In this document: positions 18,794 to 61,729 of the stretch, one piece after another
Layout: each line of letters starts with the position of its first letter
How positions within the stretch are numbered: the stretch's first letter is position 1
Source: Prevotella histicola JCM 15637 = DNF00424
Lineage (GTDB): Bacteria; Bacteroidota; Bacteroidia; Bacteroidales; Bacteroidaceae
Direction: 5' to 3'
Assembly (NCBI RefSeq): GCF_000613925.1
Contig: NZ_BAJX01000001.1
Span: 62,001 to 126,000, forward strand
DNA length: 64,000 nucleotides
Position numbers and translations under genes: made by a program
Notes under the pieces: generated by a model
Database searches by the model: none
What the model saw: only the letters and a program-made list of their open reading frames with translations
What the model was told of the DNA's origin: nothing

Positions 18794-20310
18794 ATGATAC
18801 ACAAAGAAGACCTAAAGCAAATCAGGAATAGGGGAATTGATCTTGCACAAGTTACTAAGCAATTAGAAGATTTCTGTAATGGTTTTCCTTATCTTAAGAT
18901 AAAATGTGCTGCAACACCAAAGAGAGGTATTGTAGTATTAGGTGAATCAGATATAAGCGAAGTTTGTAGAACTTGGGAGGAATATCAATCATCTGGTCAT
19001 AAAATAGTAAAGTTTGTACCAGCCTCAGGTGCAGCAAGTAGAATGTTCAAGGACCTCTTTGCTTTTCTTAATGGAAATAATGACGTACCAACAACTGATT
19101 TTGAAAAATATTTTTTTGCTAATATCCATAATTTTGCTTTCTATGCTAAGCTTTCTCAGCAATGTATGATTTCTGAAGGACAGACGGTTGATACGCTAAT
19201 TGCAAATGGTATGTTCAAAACTGTTGTCTCTATACTCTTGGAAAATAAGGGCTTAGATTACGGAGGACTTCCCAAAGGCTTCTACTTTTCCATACATACA
19301 ATGGTAATCCTCGTACTCCAATGGAGGAACATCTTGTCGAAGCTGCACTTTATGCTTCATGCAATGGTGATGCTCATGTTCATTTTACGGTTTCTCATGA
19401 ACATATTTCGCCATTTAAGAAGAAGTTGAGAGAGGTAAAGGATACTTATGAGTCCTTATATAACACCAGCTTTGAAGTTACATTCTCCGAGCAAAAACCA
19501 AGTACGGATACAATAGCTGTGAATCCTGATAATACTCCGTTTCGGAATAGTGATGGCACTTTACTCTTTCGTCCAGCAGGACATGGGGCTCTGATAGAAA
19601 ACCTGAATGAGTTAGATGCTGATATAATCTTTATAAAGAATATAGATAATGTAGTACCCGATCGTCTGAAGGATATTACAGTTAAGTGGAAAATGGTTCT
19701 TGCAGGTAAACTTGTTGAACTACAAAAGCGCACTTTCTCCTATCTGCATAAACTTGATGCTGGAACCTATACAAACGATGATATTAATGAAATGATAGAC
19801 TTCTTGCAGCACGACCTTTGCTGTTATAAACCAGATATAGAACTCCTTGAGGGTAAAGATCGTATAAGTTATCTTTATCATAAGCTTAATCGCCCAATGC
19901 GAGTTTGTGGAATGGTGAGGAATGTAGGAGAACCTGGAGGAGGCCCATACCTTGTTTTTAATAAGGATAATAGTATCAGTTTGCAGATTCTTGAAAGCTC
20001 ACAGATTGACAAACATAATAAGGCTTATGTTAAGATGTTTACAGAAGGGACACATTTTAATCCTGTAGATCTAGTTTGTGCAGTGAAAGATTACAGAGGT
20101 AGACCTTTTGATCTTGCTATGTATGTTGATAAGTCTACTGGTTTTATAAGTTCAAAGTCTAAAGATGGTCGTACTCTTAAAGCTCTTGAGTTACCAGGTT
20201 TATGGAATGGTGCTATGAGTGATTGGAATACCGTATTCGTAGAGGTTCCTCTTGATACTTTTAATCCGGTTAAAACGGTCAACGATTTATTACGTGAACA
20301 ACATCAATAA
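18794..20310 (+). CDS. DUF4301 family protein (frameshifted at about 19280)
   Basis: Cytosolic protein of about 505 residues whose sequence suggests a nucleotidyltransferase- or sugar-phosphate-related fold. Typical DUF4301 blocks are VKFVPASGAASRMFKDLF in the first frame, then TPMEEHLVEAALYA, SDGTLLFRPAGHGALIENLN, RVCGMVRNVGEPGGGP, GTHFNPVDLVCAVKDYRG and FISSKSKDGR in the second. The first frame (18794-19429) leaves the conserved sequence after GGLPKG. Restoring one C (GGCTTC to GGCCTTC) gives KGLLLFHTYNGNPRTPMEEH and joins the second frame (open from 19321 and earlier). Function unknown; the biological state of the break is undecided, but homopolymer contraction is likely. Confidence 0.8.
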
Positions 20311-21002
20311 GGTGATAGCATCATATATCTTATTCCTAAGTTCTGTATAAAGTACAATGATATTTTTATATTCAAAGGATGAGAGCTCTTAAGATATCTG
20401 AAAAGGCTGACTAAGGAGAGTTAGCTCAGAGAGCCTATTCACATGCGAGTATACTGATATATAACAAGGTTTAGAGGAAGAGGGATGAAGTGAATAGTAG
20501 TGTATGACAAAGGGTAAAAAATATATACGTATTACAAGATATGGAAAAACAAAGAATGAAAGGGAATAGTATTTTTCTTGTTTTGTAACTTAAACATTGT
20601 CAGACAGTTATAGGTAGGCTTGTGAAAGGGCCTCTTTCATGCTGCAAAAGGGCATCTTTTACATGCTAAAAGATGCCCTTTTATAATGTAAAAGATGCCC
20701 TTTTGAAAAGCAAAAGATAATCTTTTGGAAAACATAGGAAGTTTTCTTTTACAGAATGGGAGTAATTTTTTATGTATTCCTAAAGAGTTCTTTTTATTTT
20801 GTATATGTGGCTTTGCCTTATGAATATAGTTTAATCTGTTTGAATGCCGATAATATCTTTCAATTCTATTGGTTATTTTATAATTTTGATAAATAGTATT
20901 TATTGTATAAAGGAACGATAATTTGACCCATGTAGCTTTAAGTTCAAGAATTATTTCTAATAAAAAAGAGTGGATTTCTTTGTCTCTTCCAAATAAAGTT
21001 TT
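20311..21002. other. Non-coding gap upstream of rho
   Basis: About 690 bases with no credible gene. It holds a five-unit 22-nt-period palindrome array (20624-20726) and the rho promoter at its end. GAGAGTTAGCTCAG at 20416-20429 resembles a tRNA D-arm, but no cloverleaf follows. Confidence 0.65.
20624..20726. repeat. 22-nt-period palindrome array 1 (five units)
   Basis: Five 15-nt units start at 20624, 20646, 20668, 20690 and 20712, with exact 7-nt spacers. Units 3 and 4 are AAAAGATGCCCTTTT, unit 2 is its reverse complement, and units 1 and 5 are variants that keep the palindromic AAAG...CTTT ends. A weaker AT-rich sixth unit may follow. Confidence 0.85.
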
Positions 21003-21090: not shown

Positions 21091-23072
21091 ATGTTAAGCA
21101 AAGAAGAATTGTTAGAAAAAAATGTTTCTGAGCTTGAAGAAATTGCTCAGCAGACAGGTGCTGTTTACTCGCCTGGAGACGATAAGGATAAATTGGTGTA
21201 TGCCATTCTTGATCGTCAGGCAGAGGAGGTGGGAACGGCACACCCTTTAGAATCAAAGCGTAAACGTACCAGAATTGCACGTAAAGAAACTGACCGTGTT
21301 TATTCTGTACATGGTAAGAATGGTGAAAATTTTGATGTAAAAAATAATAAACCGACGGGTGTTAGTCAGCCAACTCTTTTTAAAGATGCTGTTGAAGAAA
21401 CTCCTGCGACGGAGGAAGAGAAGACACCAGAAGAGATACTTGCATCTATCCCTAAACATCGTGGACGTAAGTCAAAAGCTGAGCTTGAAGCTATTGCTGC
21501 AGCGGAGGCTGCTTTAAAAGCAAAGCAAGAAGTAGATAGCGTGGAGGATGAACAGAAGGAAGAGCCAATATCAGCTCCTGATGATTCCTTAAATAATGGG
21601 AAAAAAGTAGACATGGACGGAGAAGATTTTATTCCAGAAGACCAGTTTGTTCCTGAAAACGAGCAAGAGTCTGGCCACGATGATGATATGTTGGCTCGTC
21701 TGCAAGAAAAAGTAAATGCGCATAATATGAACTATGAAGCTTCAATTGCGCCTACAACTTTTCCAAGTGGAGTATGGGAAGGTGATCCAGGAGATGGAAC
21801 GGATTTCATTCCAGTGGTTGATCTACCAATAGAAGATCAAGGGGCTGTACCTACATATGATATGTTTGACCAACCTACAGTGCCTGGTCCTATGGCCTCT
21901 ACTCCTGTGTATGAAGAAGCTCCTACTTTGAATGCAGAGGCTACTTATGATTTCGCTGACATTATTAAGGCAAATGGTGTGTTAGAGGTAATGCCTGACG
22001 GATATGGTTTTTTACGTTCCAGCGATTATAATTACCTGTCTTCACCAGATGATGTTTATGTTTCTAATAGCCAGATTAAGCAATATGGCTTAAAAACAGG
22101 AGATGTTGTTGAATGCCATGTACGTCCGCCACGTGAGGGAGAAAAGTACTTCCCGCTTACGGGTATTGATAAAATAAATGGGCGTAAACCTTCTGAGGTG
22201 CGTGATCGTATTCCGTTTGAACATCTAACACCATTATTCCCTGACGAAAAATTCTCACTTTGCGGTGATCCAAAGACAACAAATCTCTCTACACGTATTG
22301 TAGATCTTTTTTCTCCAATAGGAAAAGGACAGCGTGCATTGATAGTGGCACAGCCTAAGACTGGTAAGACTATCCTTATGAAAGATATAGCTAATGCCAT
22401 CGCTGCTAATCATCCTGAAGCCTATTTGATGATGCTGTTGATTGATGAACGTCCAGAGGAGGTAACAGATATGGCGCGTACGGTAAATGCTGAAGTAATT
22501 GCTTCTACATTTGATGAGCCGGCTGAACGGCATGTAAAGATTGCTGGTATTGTTCTTGAAAAAGCAAAGCGCATGGTTGAATGTGGGCATGATGTAGTCA
22601 TTTTCCTCGATTCTATAACTCGTTTGGCACGTGCTTATAATACTGTAGCCCCAGCTTCAGGAAAAGTACTTACGGGTGGTGTTGATGCCAATGCATTACA
22701 GAAACCTAAGCGATTCTTTGGTGCTGCACGTAATATAGAAGGTGGTGCTCATTGACTATCATTGCAACCGCATTGATTGATACAGGTTCAAAGATGGACG
22801 AGGTAATCTTTGAGGAGTTCAAGGGTACAGGTAATATGGAATTGCAGCTTGATCGGAGCTTAAGTAATAAGCGCGTCTTCCCAGCTGTTAATCTTGTTGC
22901 CTCAAGTACACGTCGTGATGACTTGTTGCAGGATCGTACTACCTTGGATCGCATGTGGATTCTTCGTAAGTATATTGCAGATATGAATCCAATAGAGGCT
23001 ATGAATTCTATCCATGACCGTATGGCGCACACGAAAGATAATGAAGAGTTCTTGTTATCCATGAATGGATAA
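21091..23072 (+). CDS. rho: Transcription termination factor Rho (frameshifted at about 22747)
   Basis: Hexameric RNA helicase that terminates transcription. The N-terminal SAP-like segment ([19 protein letters not shown]) is followed by a long acidic, low-complexity insert (about residues 60-280) that is usual in Bacteroidetes Rho. The RNA-binding OB fold comes next ([20 protein letters not shown]), then the ATPase core with Walker [14 protein letters not shown] near 420, [13 protein letters not shown], and Walker [17 protein letters not shown]. The first frame stops at IEGGAH. Restoring one G (GGTGCTCA to GGTGGCTCA) gives [19 protein letters not shown] and the frame runs to 23072. About 660 residues in total; essential, so a sequence error is likely. 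Confidence 0.93.
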
Positions 23073-34524: not shown

Positions 34525-35146
34525 ATACTGTATACTTTGAGAATTTTATTCCTGATGCGAGTCTTTTAGAAGATGATCTCTCATCTGGAATCAAGTCGAT
34601 TCAAATGAAAACGAAATCTGTTTCTTAATGATTGTATGGTGATTTAGAACTTCCTTTTGTAAAACAAATTCTCTTTTGGTTTTTAATAGGTCATATTTTG
34701 CTTTCTAAAAGGTGCTCTTTTGAATTGCAAAAGATGCCCTTTTGAAGTGTAAAAGACGCCCTTTTGCAATGTAAAAGACGCCCTTTTAAGAGCCTGTTTC
34801 TAATTGCTTGATAATGTATGTGTTACAAAACTATTTAGAAATCATTTCCTATCCCTTAATTCATCCTTATATTCTTAAATCTGTAAATTTACTTTATCAT
34901 TTCGTAATATTCAAGTTCTGAGTTGTTCTCTTAGTACCTTGTATTTTATTGTATACATGGAAAGCATATAGGACATCATCCTTTGTACTTAGCATCATCG
35001 CCTGAAATGAATGGGAAGTATAGACATTTTATACTTCGAACTTGAAATATTGCCTTTAAACTTTATACTATATTCTAGTGAGATGCTGATACAAAAGATA
35101 ATGAAACTGAGGACCACTAAGATGGAAGTAATCCCAATTTCCTGTA
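34525..35146. other. Non-coding gap between coaW and trpB2
   Basis: About 620 bases. It holds the four-unit palindrome array 34707-34787. The remainder is AT-rich; short open frames (for example around 35011-35211) lack protein character. Confidence 0.6.
34707..34787. repeat. 22-nt-period palindrome array 2 (four units)
   Basis: 15-nt units at 34707, 34729, 34751 and 34773: AAAAGGTGCTCTTTT, AAAAGATGCCCTTTT, then AAAAGACGCCCTTTT twice, with 7-nt spacers GAATTGC, GAAGTGT, GCAATGT. Confidence 0.85.
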
Positions 35147-45000: not shown

Positions 45001-45384
45001 GAAAGACTGGATTTTATAAAGTAATATGATTCCTTGCGAAAATACTATTTCATGAGTTTATATAAATGAAGAGCATTTTTATAATCTTTTGAAGAATTAG
45101 TAGTATGTGAAAGAATAAAAAGTTTACGTGATTATAAAATGGTAAAAACACAATTAAATAGTAAAAGAAGCCTTTCTACAAAGTAAAATAGCATCTTTTG
45201 AATTGTGAATTGTAGATCTTTAATTATCTGTGTATTATGAATCTCAAGATGCTTGTTTTATGTTCATTCTTTGTATCTCTTACGATATATTATTTGTATA
45301 GATAGTTTCTTTTGTATCTTTAGGAGAGATTATGTAGATTTGAACAAGTATATGCTTATTCGTAGAACCATGTTGGAGTTCGCC
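45001..45384. other. Non-coding gap
   Basis: About 380 bases; AT-rich. It contains a weakly preserved palindrome array at 45163-45199 and nothing else recognisable. Confidence 0.6.
45163..45199. repeat. 22-nt-period palindrome array 4 (two degenerate units)
   Basis: Units AAAAGAAGCCTTTCT (45163) and AAAATAGCATCTTTT (45185) keep the 15+7 spacing, with spacer ACAAAGT; a third decayed unit may start at 45207. It appears to be an older copy of arrays 1-3. Confidence 0.6.
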
Positions 45385-57107: not shown

Positions 57108-59700
57108 TGATGAAAAGATTACTCCTTTATATTCTCTGTCTTTTCGTTTGGATACAAGCACAAGCTCAAGAAACTATACGTTGACTGGAATTGTGTCGGA
57201 CTCTAATGGTATGCCAATAAGAAATGCCAATGTGCAGATTTTAGAAAATAACAAGCCCATTGCCTATACCTTTACCAATGAGAAGGGAAGCTATGCTTTA
57301 AGCTACAATAGTGTTAAAACGCAGGTGCTACTTTCTATCGGACATATATCGTTTGAGAAAACCAAGCTAGTAATAGATAGCAAAGAAACAAAAAAGAACA
57401 TTACATTACTTGAAAAAAAGATGCAGTTAAGGGAAGTTGTTGTAAAGGCTCCACAAATAATTCAGCACGGCGATACACTTTCCTATCGGTTGAGTTCTTT
57501 CGCAGGAAAGGGCGATTACACGCTTAGAGATGCGATGAAGCGATTGCCCGGTATAGAGGTAACTAATTCGGGAAGTATAAAATATCTAGGAAAGGATATT
57601 TCCAATTTTTACATTGAGGGAATGGATCTTCTTGGTGGACAATATAATGTAGCCACAAACAATATTCCAGCAGACTACGTTACATCTCTGCAGGTGTTGA
57701 ATAATCATAAAGACGCCAAAATGGACAAAGACGTGCTATCTGATGATGTGGCAATAAATATAAAACTTTCAAAGCACGCCAAGTTTAAACCAGTCGGGAC
57801 ATATGAAGCAATTGGAGGTTTAGGCAGTAATGGAGGACTTTACCAAACTAATGGAGCTGGTATGTTCTTCAAATCGCGTATGCAACTTTTGGGAACATTT
57901 AAGATAGGGAACATAAGGGAGTTTGCTACCGATGAAAATATCAATCATTTTCTAAACGACCAGTTAGAATCTTACGGTGTAAAACTATTGGGTAACTTAT
58001 CTTCTTCTAGTGCACCACTCAAAAGAGAAAGGTATATCCATCCCAAAGATTATTCCGCTAGCTTCAATCTACTCTATAAACTGTCGGAAAACAAGTCGTT
58101 AAGAACAAATGTAGGCTATGCTTATTCCCAATGTAACTATGCTTACAATCATAAGATGTTTTTTGGTAATGGTTTGGACGAATTAGTGCAAGATTATCAA
58201 TACCAATCTGCCTCTACACTTCACAAGCCTACCCTGACTATCGAATACAAGGACAATAGCGATAAACGATATATCACCAATCGGTTTTCATCAGTGGCTT
58301 CGTTCGTAAAATCAGAATTGCCAACAGTTGAAAACAATAGCAATTCGGTCTTTCAAAATGAGAAATATCACGATTTAGGTTTTTCCAACAACCTTTCCAT
58401 ACGTTGGAAAACAAATAAGTTTCGCTGGAGTCTTTCTTCTCTTCTCAGTTATACTACTATGCCTAATGGCACTATTCGCGTTTCACACGTAGGAGTAGCC
58501 TCTTTTCAGCAAAGTGCAAACAGCAAACAGTTTACGAATCAGGAAACTATTTCTGCCACTTATGAAAGAAGAGCCTCACGAGTTTATTTTCCTCTTTCAT
58601 TCCAATATCGTAGCGAAAGGGTTAATTCAGCTTTGATAACTGATGACTATTCAGGCTTTAACCTAGTGAGGGGAAATGAATTAGATTTTTCATTCTCTCC
58701 ACAATATGAATATACCCACCCACAACGGAAATATAATTTCAAGGCAGGCGTATCATTGGCTACAACAAGAATCGATTTTGAAAATGAGGGAACAACTCCA
58801 TTAAAGAAGCAGAAATGGAGCTTTGTAATTAATCCTTCATTTTATTTTCTCTACAATGTTACACCAAGAGCTACGATAAGGATTCAAGGGGCTTTTGCAA
58901 ACAAGATAGGTGATTTGGCTGATTTTATAACAGCACCGATACAAACCAGTCTGAACTATCAAAGGTACAGTTTAGGGATCTTGAGTGAGAATAGGAGTGT
59001 TACGCTCAATGCTATTTACGATTTAAAATATCCAATAGAAATGTTTTTTCTTAATTTTGGTATAGGCTACACACATCAGCACAACAATTTATTGTCGGCA
59101 CAGAATGTGTCGCAAACATTGATTAAGGAATGTCCGGCACTAAGTCCTAACGGCACTGACAATATTAATACCTATTTCAATATTACAAAACAGGTAAAAG
59201 CTATCAACACCAAGTTTTCGCTGTACGGAATTTATATGCACAGCAAGAGCTTGATGATGCAAAATAGTATGATTTACAGCTATTCGTGGAACAGTCTAAA
59301 TGTAGCTCCATCTGTTTCATTCAAACCTGTTTCTTTTATGGAGTTATATTATACTTATAGCTTTTCAAAGAACTTTACAAAGGTACAAAACGTGTCAAAA
59401 TCTTTCTTGTCGCAAACACATGATATCAACTTGGTATTACAGCCTGTAACAAATCTGCAATTCAAGGCAATGGCAGATATTTCAACAAAGGAAATGTATC
59501 AAGATCTTACCAAGACTATGGCTATCTTCGATGCAGGGGTCAGTTACAGACACAAAGCATTTCGTTTCAGTATTGATATGAGAAATATTTTCAATCAGCA
59601 GTATTATAGTTACACCATTTTTAACATGATGAATACCTACGTTTACAGTTATCACATGAGAGGGAGAGAGTTGCTTTTTACTATTTCATTAACAAAATAA
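57104..59700 (+). CDS. CarboxypepD_reg-like outer-membrane beta-barrel protein (frameshifted at about 57171)
   Basis: About 865 residues. The true start is the ATG at 57104, overlapping the GLPGLI stop (ATGA), with signal peptide MMKRLLLYILCLFVWIQAQA. The frame then breaks after AQAQE; restoring one A (CAAGAAACTA to CAAGAAAACTA) gives ENYTLTGIVSDSNGMPIRN and continues to 59700. The domain order is a carboxypeptidase-regulatory-like domain (22-100, TGIVSDSNGMPIRNANVQIL), a plug-like segment (LREVVVKAPQIIQHGDTLSY, RLPGIEVTNSGSIKYLGKDI) and a large barrel ending RELLFTISLTK. This type commonly sits next to GLPGLI genes and peptide exporters. Confidence 0.85.
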
Positions 59701-59702
59701 GA

Positions 59703-59974
59703 ATGGCAGGTTTTGTTTTTATAAAGCAACATGACGCTATGCAATGTGGAGCAGCATGCATAGTAATATTATGCCATTTATATGGCAAAAAATATTCTCT
59801 ACAACAAATATCAAAGAGCTTAGAAAGTTCAAAAGGTGGAGTTTCTATGTATGATATTAGTGAACTAGCAAAAAAATAGGATTAAAATGTAATGGGAAAA
59901 TAGTATCTCTTGATATACTAAAGACTTATGAAAAACATCTTACAATTCCGAATACAAAAAGACTTGATAATTAA
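59703..59974 (+). pseudogene. Truncated, frameshifted C39-peptidase ABC exporter (N-terminal stub)
   Basis: MAGFVFIKQHDAMQCGAACI then VILCHLYGKKYSLQQISKSL is the start of a C39 bacteriocin-processing peptidase: Gln8 and Cys14 of the KQHDxMxCGxA motif are present. Frame 1 stops after ELAKK. Adding one A to an A7 run gives ELAKKIGLKCNGKIVSLDIL, which continues about 30 residues to a stop at 59974 (TKRLDN). There is no catalytic His, transmembrane or ATPase region; the sequence after it is intergenic repeat. It is 2 bases after the CarboxypepD_reg gene, as in intact GG-leader loci. The exporter was probably lost by deletion. Confidence 0.75.
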
Positions 59975-60038
59975 AAGAAAACCTATTATTTCCGCTTTCA
60001 TAACTCACGCTGTACCAATAGGTTACAAAACCGAAAAT

Positions 60039-60141
60039 AAAAGGTGCCCTTTTGCGTTCCAAAAGAGCACCTTTTACACCTCAAAAGGGCATCTTTTACA
60101 ATGTAAAAGAGCGTCTTTTAATTTACTAAAGAGCACCTGCT
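60039..60141. repeat. 22-nt-period palindrome array 3 (five units, last degenerate)
   Basis: Units at 60039 (AAAAGGTGCCCTTTT), 60061 (AAAAGAGCACCTTTT), 60083 (AAAAGGGCATCTTTT), 60105 (AAAAGAGCGTCTTTT) and a decayed one at 60127, each 22 nt apart. Orientation alternates compared with arrays 1 and 2. Confidence 0.85.
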
Positions 60142-60260
60142 ATTTTCTATTTATGAATCTTTATTACAACATTTCCAATGTCCCTTTTCTTTTCATAACA
60201 AACGAGTATTGTACCTTCTGCATAGTTATAAGAACACCATAAAAACGACTGCTTTTCAAT

Positions 60261-60481: not shown

Positions 60482-61729
60482 TTATTCGTAATGCATTGAT
60501 TTAGCTGGATGAATATGACTGATAAGATAACTTGGTGCTATAAGAATAACTAAACATACCAGCATTGTTACCATGTTTAGTGCGATAATAAGTGGAATGT
60601 TGATTTCTACAGGAACTGTGTTGACATAATAAGTTTGAGGATCAAGTTTTACAAGTCCTGTCCAAGATTGAAATAATATGCAGCCAAGTCCTATAATATT
60701 ACCCCATAAGAGTCCTTTACCAATAATAAAGGTTGCAAACCAAAGGAAGATGTGTCGTATCTGTCTGTTACGTGATCCTAAAGCCTTCAAAATACCAATC
60801 GTCTGTGTCCGTTCAAGGATAATGATAAGAAGGCCTGAAATCATAGTTACACCAGCTACGGAGATCATAAGTGCAAGGATTATCCAAACATTCATGTCCA
60901 TCAAATCTAACCATGAGAATATTTGTGGGTTTTGTTCTATGATGTTTTCTGATGAATAAGTACCTCCATAGTGGTCAACAGTATTCTTTACCTTATTAAG
61001 AACACGCATAGATATAGGAGTAAGTTGGGAGAATTTGTCGACTTGTAGTTCGGCGCCACTATACTGGTCAGGCTCCCAACCATTTAGTTTGTTCGTAGTA
61101 TATATATCAGTGAAGCATATCTGCGAATCAAACTGTTTCATATTTGTTGCATAGATACCTGTGATAGTGAACTTACGTGTACGTACCCCTTGCTTATTTA
61201 TGAAATATGCGAAGATACGTTGCCCAACCTTCAGATTTAGCTTATCAGCAATAGTCTTTGATATAACTATTTTTTGTTGGCTCTCATTATCATGAAAGTG
61301 TGGGAGTGATCCCTCCACCATGTTCTCATGGATAAATGTAGAGTCGAAATCAGGGCCAACTCCTTTTAGCAATACTCCAAGGAAGTCATTATCTGTCTTC
61401 AGTATACCTTGCGTATAATCATAGCGCTGTACATGCTTGATTCCAGGCGTTATCTGTAGAGCCTTGACCAAAGAGTCCGTAATTTGGATAGGGTATTGCT
61501 CTGAACTTTGGAGCGTAAGGAAATTCGCTACTGTTATATCACTACCAAATCCTACTACTTTATTGCGAATTGTATGTTTAAATCCTAAGACAACACCAAC
61601 TGAGATAATCATAACCGCAAGTCCAATAGCCACACCTATAGTGGCAATGCGGATAGCAGGCTTAGACACTTTACGTGTTCTATCACCTCCGTTATAAATC
61701 TTTCGGGCAATAAAAAGTGGATAATTCAT
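60482..61729 (-). CDS. LolC/LolE-like ABC transporter permease (FtsX-type)
   Basis: 415-residue inner-membrane permease of the lipoprotein-releasing type. N-terminal MNYPLFIARKIYNGGDRTRK and IRIATIGVAIGLAVMIISVG (first membrane helix) precede a large periplasmic MacB-PCD-like domain. Three further helices follow, including VWIILALMISVAGVTMISGL and the FtsX motif ERTQTIGILKALGSRNRQIR. It probably extracts outer-membrane lipoproteins with an ATPase encoded elsewhere. It starts 3 bases downstream of the aminotransferase stop, so they are cotranscribed. Confidence 0.87.
   Translation of the reverse strand: MNYPLFIARKIYNGGDRTRKVSKPAIRIATIGVAIGLAVMIISVGVVLGFKHTIRNKVVGFGSDITVANFLTLQSSEQYPIQITDSLVKALQITPGIKHVQRYDYTQGILKTDNDFLGVLLKGVGPDFDSTFIHENMVEGSLPHFHDNESQQKIVISKTIADKLNLKVGQRIFAYFINKQGVRTRKFTITGIYATNMKQFDSQICFTDIYTTNKLNGWEPDQYSGAELQVDKFSQLTPISMRVLNKVKNTVDHYGGTYSSENIIEQNPQIFSWLDLMDMNVWIILALMISVAGVTMISGLLIIILERTQTIGILKALGSRNRQIRHIFLWFATFIIGKGLLWGNIIGLGCILFQSWTGLVKLDPQTYYVNTVPVEINIPLIIALNMVTMLVCLVILIAPSYLISHIHPAKSMHYE

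Follow-up and report, generated by a model that had tools for sequence, protein, structure and literature searches.

The window (the whole stretch of DNA analysed, 64,000 nt of the Prevotella histicola genome) holds four intergenic sites with 15-bp units of the type AAAAGN5CTTTT. The initial annotation described them as four arrays of a palindrome at a 22-nt period, and all four are present where it placed them, with the corrections that 34707 is the second unit of an array spanning 34685–34787 and that the repeat sequence at 45163 is a decayed remnant, in which two units can still be recognised together with part of the right flank. With at most one mismatch the window contains 25 occurrences of the pattern AAAAGN5CTTTT, where 7.1 are expected, a count reached in none of 100 shuffles. 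The arrays do not stand by themselves; each is the core of a longer element of ~185 bp. The features of the window are:

20580..20757, minus strand: element 1 (model positions 4–181; nhmmer 122.2 bits; orientation from the right-flank match, 32 versus 17 of 42), between the codirectional DUF4301 gene and rho
20624..20726, unstranded: array of element 1, five 15-bp units and four 7-bp spacers; units at 20624 (two mismatches), 20646, 20668, 20690 and 20712 (atypical core)
34653..34831, plus strand: element 2 (model positions 3–181; nhmmer 154.2 bits), between a convergent Fumble/BadF-domain gene and PLP-enzyme gene (Pfam)
34685..34787, unstranded: array of element 2; units at 34685 (degenerate), 34707, 34729, 34751 and 34773
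45158..45244, plus strand: element 3, decayed remnant (model positions 96–182; nhmmer 22.7 bits) whose two units lie at 45163 and 45185; its neighbours are a TrmO-domain gene and, on the reverse strand, a 104-aa ORF that has no Pfam match
59992..60171, minus strand: element 4 (model positions 5–184; nhmmer 140.1 bits), belonging to a subfamily whose flanks are extended and located between the convergent ORFs 57148–59700 and 60482–61729 if the overlapping small ORF 59928–60242 is spurious
60039..60141, unstranded: array of element 4; units at 60039, 60061, 60083, 60105 and 60127 (the last degenerate)

The DUF4301 gene and rho (window positions 18794–20310 and 21091–23072) both look frameshift-split in the assembly, the former being read as two overlapping ORFs and the latter as a frame of 561 aa compared to open frames of 592–738 aa in relatives; perhaps these are sequencing errors. 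Among the named loci compared, P. veroralis has the rho closest to that of the window.

The complete element consists of a left flank, five 15-bp units at exact 22-bp steps and a right flank. An element profile HMM was built from 31 copies, while the alignment and a sequence-only model used 49 of the 53 reference copies; in the majority consensus of these 49 the left flank begins TTTTGTAAAATAAATTC, the right flank is ACAAGCCTnTTTGTAACTnnTTGATAATCTGnnGGTTACAAA, and the two ends of the element share TTTGTAA/TTACAAA in opposite orientation. When searching 864 kb of the 2.95-Mb genome (the window and 40 stretches of 20 kb) 56 full copies above 90 bits were found, giving an estimate of ~190 copies per genome if the sample is fair. 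The non-overlapping HMM matches numbered 79, and 14 of these at or below 90 bits were dropped, including the remnant found in the window (45158) and three copies that are partial and score 51–74 bits. Genome-wide, the sequence-only model gave at least 150 element matches in P. histicola, and the positions of 148 of them, as listed, underlie the distance and strand counts below. Strict adjacent pairs (AAAAGN5CTTTT-N7-AAAAGN5CTTTT) occur 457 times in the genome, and the backward pattern is absent, which bears out the idea of a dispersed family; the concern that the four arrays might lack counterparts elsewhere in this genome and in relatives is excluded, as copies were found in both.

The exact 22-nt period was confirmed for 124 of 124 distances between neighbouring units, with distances of 21 and 23 also allowed under a stricter mismatch limit. 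The first 464 kb contain 31 arrays, of which 25 have exactly five units, three have four and three have six, as counted permissively (up to 3 of the 10 fixed letters wrong). Across 54 aligned full copies the array contains no indels and the flanks four inserted or deleted bases, so that a low indel rate is not unique to the array. Freeing the spacer to 0–30 nt raised the pair count from 457 to 505 in P. histicola and mostly by little in 15 other genomes (55 to 62, 72 to 73 and 11 to 12), with larger rises in G039 (109 to 156), G065 (21 to 34) and G168 (12 to 23). All free-spacer pairs whose places were listed (in three of the 16 genomes: all 20 in G293, part of those in G010 and the first only in P. 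histicola) lie at 22-bp steps, or at 44-bp steps over an imperfect unit. In 14 of the 16 genomes the backward control of the free-spacer pattern has no match; in G132 and G146 it has 4 each, and the forward counts of 11 and 10 there are a modest excess.

The 7-nt spacers are recurrent and specific to their position in the array, and they keep their orientation where units are flipped. This agrees with the earlier statement that the arrays are not CRISPR, for which identical repeats separated by unique ~30-nt spacers would be expected. A subfamily with an extended left flank (TTGTTATGAAAA...ATAAAGATTCATAAATTGA in the P. histicola copies) and a right tail includes the window element 59992–60171 and copies in the loci L099 (~580), L105 (~378), L107 (~409) and L198; a copy in the relative G003 shares the array-adjacent part of it.

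Unit core and orientation switch

The arms AAAAG...CTTTT of the unit are palindromic, as first described, but the inner five bases are not self-complementary. Read in one orientation (f) the core is GRYGCYC and in the other (r) its reverse complement. The core variants had been explained by compensated changes; most of them are R/Y transitions, while the occurrence of units in both orientations was borne out, flipped units being found as well. Core positions 2–3 read AT in 128 cases, AC in 95, GT in 81 and GC in only 2 of 310 (65 copies); GC being nearly absent there even though both letters are frequent taken singly, GGCGCC is avoided, which could reflect restriction, methylation or a binding rule.

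The orientations are not arranged at random along the array. Exactly one switch was found in 53 of the 62 unambiguous copies (of 65 in all), none in four, two in three and three in two, and the total of 65 switches compares to 106.1 (sd 6.2) expected when orientations are shuffled within positions. Chance inheritance was rejected as the source of this pattern since it persists after collapsing copies by flank identity: for 20, 29 and 40 flank-dissimilar representatives there are 22 versus 33.7, 32 versus 47.6 and 45 versus 71.3 switches, and the observed numbers were reached in 7, 1 and 0 of 4000 shuffles, respectively. Block inversion is likewise disfavoured because the spacers keep their position-specific letters while the units flip.

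At a switch the two adjoining units match each other's complement better than random partners do (13.81 versus 13.44 of 15, z 3.6), and 23 of 68 such pairs are perfectly complementary. Nested unit pairs farther from the switch show no Watson-Crick excess (11.56 versus 11.58) and, with G-U pairs counted, a slight one (12.63 versus 12.41, sd 0.11). A single switch gives each element one 37-bp inverted repeat, which could have a role in cruciform formation or in the polarity of a protein array; the switch could also have arisen as a side effect of mutation by hairpin template switching.

Placement at gene ends

Among intergenic gaps of at least 180 bp an element is present in 20 of 57 between convergent genes, in 21 of 122 between tandem genes and in 5 of 55 between divergent ones, the genes being simple and possibly spurious ORF calls with 10 of 56 elements inside called ORFs or at stretch edges. 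The bias in position near gene ends that the initial annotation proposed to look for is seen as a preference for convergent gaps, an excess that persists with other ORF cut-offs (20/59, 21/56 and 22/60). The avoidance of divergent gaps is unstable to the cut-off, with rates of 6/55, 9/53 and 8/53 that reach the tandem rate (21/129, 21/135 and 22/137). In tandem gaps the element lies closer to the upstream stop than to the downstream start in 17 of 21 cases. A strand bias, for which the initial annotation also proposed a test, was not found (80 plus and 68 minus among the copies listed).

Copies also keep a distance from each other. On contigs C36–C55 none of 110 gaps between copies is below 2 kb, against 16.0 expected and a minimum of three in 3000 uniform placements; against a null of intergenic gaps the effect is weaker (0 of 38 under 2 kb, p 0.02–0.04). 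No pair less than 2 kb apart occurs among the 148 copies listed, a count that leaves aside decayed partial copies. Contigs C41 and C50 (184 kb) and positions 72–247 kb of C53 hold none of the 148 strong copies listed, and are perhaps mobile or recently acquired DNA.

A location behind genes raises the question of whether the element acts in RNA, as a bidirectional intrinsic terminator or a 3'-end RNA stabiliser formed from neighbouring units of opposite orientation. At least one such junction is present in 61 of the 65 copies, a perfectly complementary example folds into a 17-bp hairpin of -26.2 kcal/mol, and both the complementarity at the switch and the preference for convergent gaps would fit. 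When gene ends facing an element were inspected, a canonical terminator preceded the element in 27 of 55, compared to 38 of 197 ends in element-free gaps (p=2e-5; gene ends with less than 60 nt before the element were dropped, and spurious ORFs could dilute the element-free group). Since terminators precede elements more often, the elements do not appear simply to replace them, although by the terminator finder used the remaining 28 of 55 facing ends carry none before the element, a point in favour of a terminator role. Same-orientation neighbours form weak hairpins (-6.0 in one example) and yet are equally phased, and the nested pairs lack the Watson-Crick excess. The earlier suggestion that units could form small RNA hairpins is thus less supported: there is no Rfam match at gathering score in the window, the RNAalifold consensus fold is weak (-5.3 kcal/mol), and the pairs TTTGTAAC/GTTACAAA of the right flank show little covariation. 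On this balance a terminator or stabiliser role appears quite unlikely.

Phasing, curvature and conservation in relatives

Distances between the starts of AAAA and TTTT tracts are almost exclusively 11, 22, 33, 44 and 55 bp, with 474 at 11 bp, placing an A/T tract approximately every helical turn on one face of the DNA with AAAA and TTTT alternating per 11 bp. The bend predicted from dinucleotide wedge values lies above the 99th percentile of random windows of this genome (3000 drawn) in 59 of 65 arrays; with the same units but scrambled spacer lengths 16 of 65 remain above it. The 11-bp spacing is off the ideal 10.5-bp phase. In relatives the arrays above the 95th percentile of background curvature are 3 of 11 in G132, 6 of 11 in G146, 6 of 8 in G084, none of 3 in G010 and 2 of 2 in P. 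disiens, the background partly overlapping the elements themselves. Some tract positions in the arrays of G132 and G146 often read AATT or ACTA.

The element is not universal in the genus. Strict pairs occur at least once in 37 and at least ten times in 14 of 299 genus genomes, a pattern that undercounts, as G132 has 7 such pairs yet at least 150 model matches. A tract-only pattern (A4N7T4N7A4N7T4) reached ten or more matches in 20 of 72 genus genomes and in none of 226 genomes from the other 21 genera (maximum 6); its backward control is unclean because long arrays match it too. Model matches number 40 in P. veroralis (G026), at least 150 each in G132 and G146, and 147 at E<=1e-3 in P. disiens JCM 6334. 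The element flanks are recognisable at loci in G132, G146, P. veroralis and G084 and barely so in P. disiens, where two loci show the 22-bp A4-N7-T4 design. The core letters are species-specific, for example GATGCCC in P. histicola, GGTCATC/GGTTACC in G010, GCAGCCC in G293, GAGCCGC and CAATAGG in G084 and CAGGCTC in P. disiens, while the phasing remains constant. In one P. disiens locus (L219) six consecutive AAAACAGGCTCTTTT units follow each other every 22 bp, five of them with an identical spacer; the five-unit arrays of P. histicola are, by contrast, diverged, and this uniformity suggests a recent expansion of units in P. disiens.

G132 and G146 are close to each other, a relationship judged without a tree, and in a region of ~100 kb all 11 of 11 elements are shared with the same order and orientation. 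When comparing ten of the 11 ortholog pairs (one was omitted, its right part being unaligned), changes were seen at 44 of 750 tract and core positions, 25 of 279 spacer positions, 86 of 800 positions of the element flanks and 282 of 2827 outside. Tract and core are thus better conserved than flanks and outside DNA together (368 of 3627 changed, p=1.5e-4), whereas the spacers change like outside DNA (p=0.67). Gap columns number 3 in the arrays, 0 in the element flanks and 200 outside. Core and tracts are conserved alike (5.4% and 6.2% changed, respectively), so that curvature alone cannot be the constraint.

This bears directly on the proposal that the array is purely a signal of intrinsic curvature, pinning plectonemes without any specific protein. 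Besides the tract phasing and the predicted bend, it can draw on the finding of Kim et al. 2018 (PMC6301789) that plectonemes are pinned by a curved sequence of 75 bp. The predicted pins of that study lie upstream of promoters, however, while the elements favour gene ends, and neither the modest curvature in several relatives nor the near exclusion of GC at core positions 2–3 fits it; we regard it as improbable.

In both the rho gap and the PLP-enzyme gap an element is present in P. histicola and in G132/G146, in opposite orientation at 2 of 2, hinting at inversion or independent insertion. The rho gap of G003 is without an element, and none lies beside its PLP-enzyme gene, where the neighbouring gene differs. 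For the gene adjoining element 4 the relatives have no or a weak partial match, in a comparison where the other neighbour was not found in the relatives and the gap may differ.

A selfish or relic MITE-like repeat, whose phased array would be read by a transposase, an integrase or a host factor and which would serve no host use, could account for the empty rho gap of G003 and for the opposite orientations, as well as for the fixed size, the ~190 estimated copies, the patchy distribution and the oppositely oriented ends. The avoidance of genes and of neighbouring copies would fit tolerated insertion sites. Against it stand the lack of movement between G132 and G146, arrays that are better conserved than their surroundings and the absence of a Y1 transposase match in P. 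histicola; among the matches listed no target duplication could be defined against G132, G003 or G026, the intergenic DNA being too diverged. A repeat of this kind is possible but rather doubtful.

Relation to known repeats and possible role

The family is probably the PINSR repeat of Naito et al. 2016 (PMC4755523), because size, copy number, intergenic location and presence in P. disiens agree. PINSR is described as an intergenic repeat of 188 bp with 177–184 copies in the P. intermedia group, compared to 185 model positions and ~190 estimated copies here; P. disiens is positive in both studies, and positions are kept, largely so between strains for PINSR and between close species here. PCR confined PINSR to one clade (intermedia/nigrescens), with P. 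veroralis tested and not positive, a restriction that does not hold for the present family with its matches in P. veroralis, G132 and G146. The likeness to PINSR, whose consensus is published as a figure, is judged by description. Searched by terms, the main text of that paper describes PINSR neither as palindromic nor as tandem nor as having a period of 22 bp. Among the titles and abstracts listed in literature searches PINSR appears in that paper alone, none describes a five-site architecture, and searches with the unit sequences gave none either. The element is therefore probably a repeat already known, whose unusual inner design has gone unrecognised and which ranges more widely than reported.

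Other repeats resemble it in part. The BrickBuilt MITE of Porphyromonas gingivalis, present in 19 copies, is likewise an intergenic element of a Bacteroidales species in which a leader and a tail enclose tandem units, there of 23 nt (PMC4596501); its unit, AGAYCATARTATCCTCTCRTRTG, is unrelated, its unit number varies and its TIRs match an IS, while most arrays here have exactly five units. REP/BIME sequences are dispersed intergenic palindromes in both orientations, linked to RAYT (PMC2817692, PMC3733652), and share the regular spacing but not the strict 22-bp phasing with five units; a CGTC occurs here inside one unit variant (GGGCGTC) and not as an end tag. A REP/RAYT system was rejected, with 0 matches to the Y1 transposase family (PF01797) in the P. 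histicola genome (95.33% complete) and no association among 41 genomes, the family being found in 10 of the 21 genomes that have strict pairs and in 12 of the 20 that lack them. Bacterial chromosomes also contain phased clusters of A-tracts (PMC3940949, PMC516772, PMC4132750) with a similar tract spacing of ~11 bp; they represent a statistical tendency, whereas the element is a discrete repeated module with palindromic sites.

Tentatively, and short of calling it probable, we favour a phased, pre-bent DNA platform for a putative dimeric chromosome protein. That the period would suit proteins binding on the same face of the DNA was already proposed in the initial annotation, and it finds support as an idea in that centres 22 bp apart place each site on one face. 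A dimeric binder acting on bent DNA is indicated because phasing is kept without indels in the array and unit orientation is indifferent, and also because tract and core are conserved and the spacer is not, and the core letters change on a constant frame. The element would then act as DNA, with five dimers of one sequence-specific, putative protein binding side by side and wrapping or bridging DNA behind transcription units. The placement at gene ends and in convergent gaps and the minimum distance suggest a role in chromosome organisation or supercoil handling; the platforms might organise the chromosome or hold supercoils every few to ~15 kb, for example by pinning the tip of a plectoneme or by loading a gyrase- or NAP-like factor. 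The pinning of plectonemes by curved segments of ~75 bp (Kim et al.) is a lead in this direction. The weaker curvature in several relatives counts against a bent platform, and simple tandem binding does not explain the single switch or the excess of complementarity at it.

Little appears to be understood of chromosome organisation in Bacteroidota. A further-reaching and more speculative version of the platform reading, unlikely in its full form, would see a chromosome-architecture code in which ~190 pre-bent five-site modules, at least 2 kb apart, often behind terminators and with one orientation switch each, serve as nucleoprotein anchors; a putative reader protein would have co-evolved with the core letters, so that the core differs from one Prevotella species to the next while all share the 11/22-bp frame. 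A fixed-phase module with a species-specific core and a minimum distance between copies offers both a set of sites and a bait for such a protein, and it gives the published, unexplained PINSR repeat a probable anatomy.
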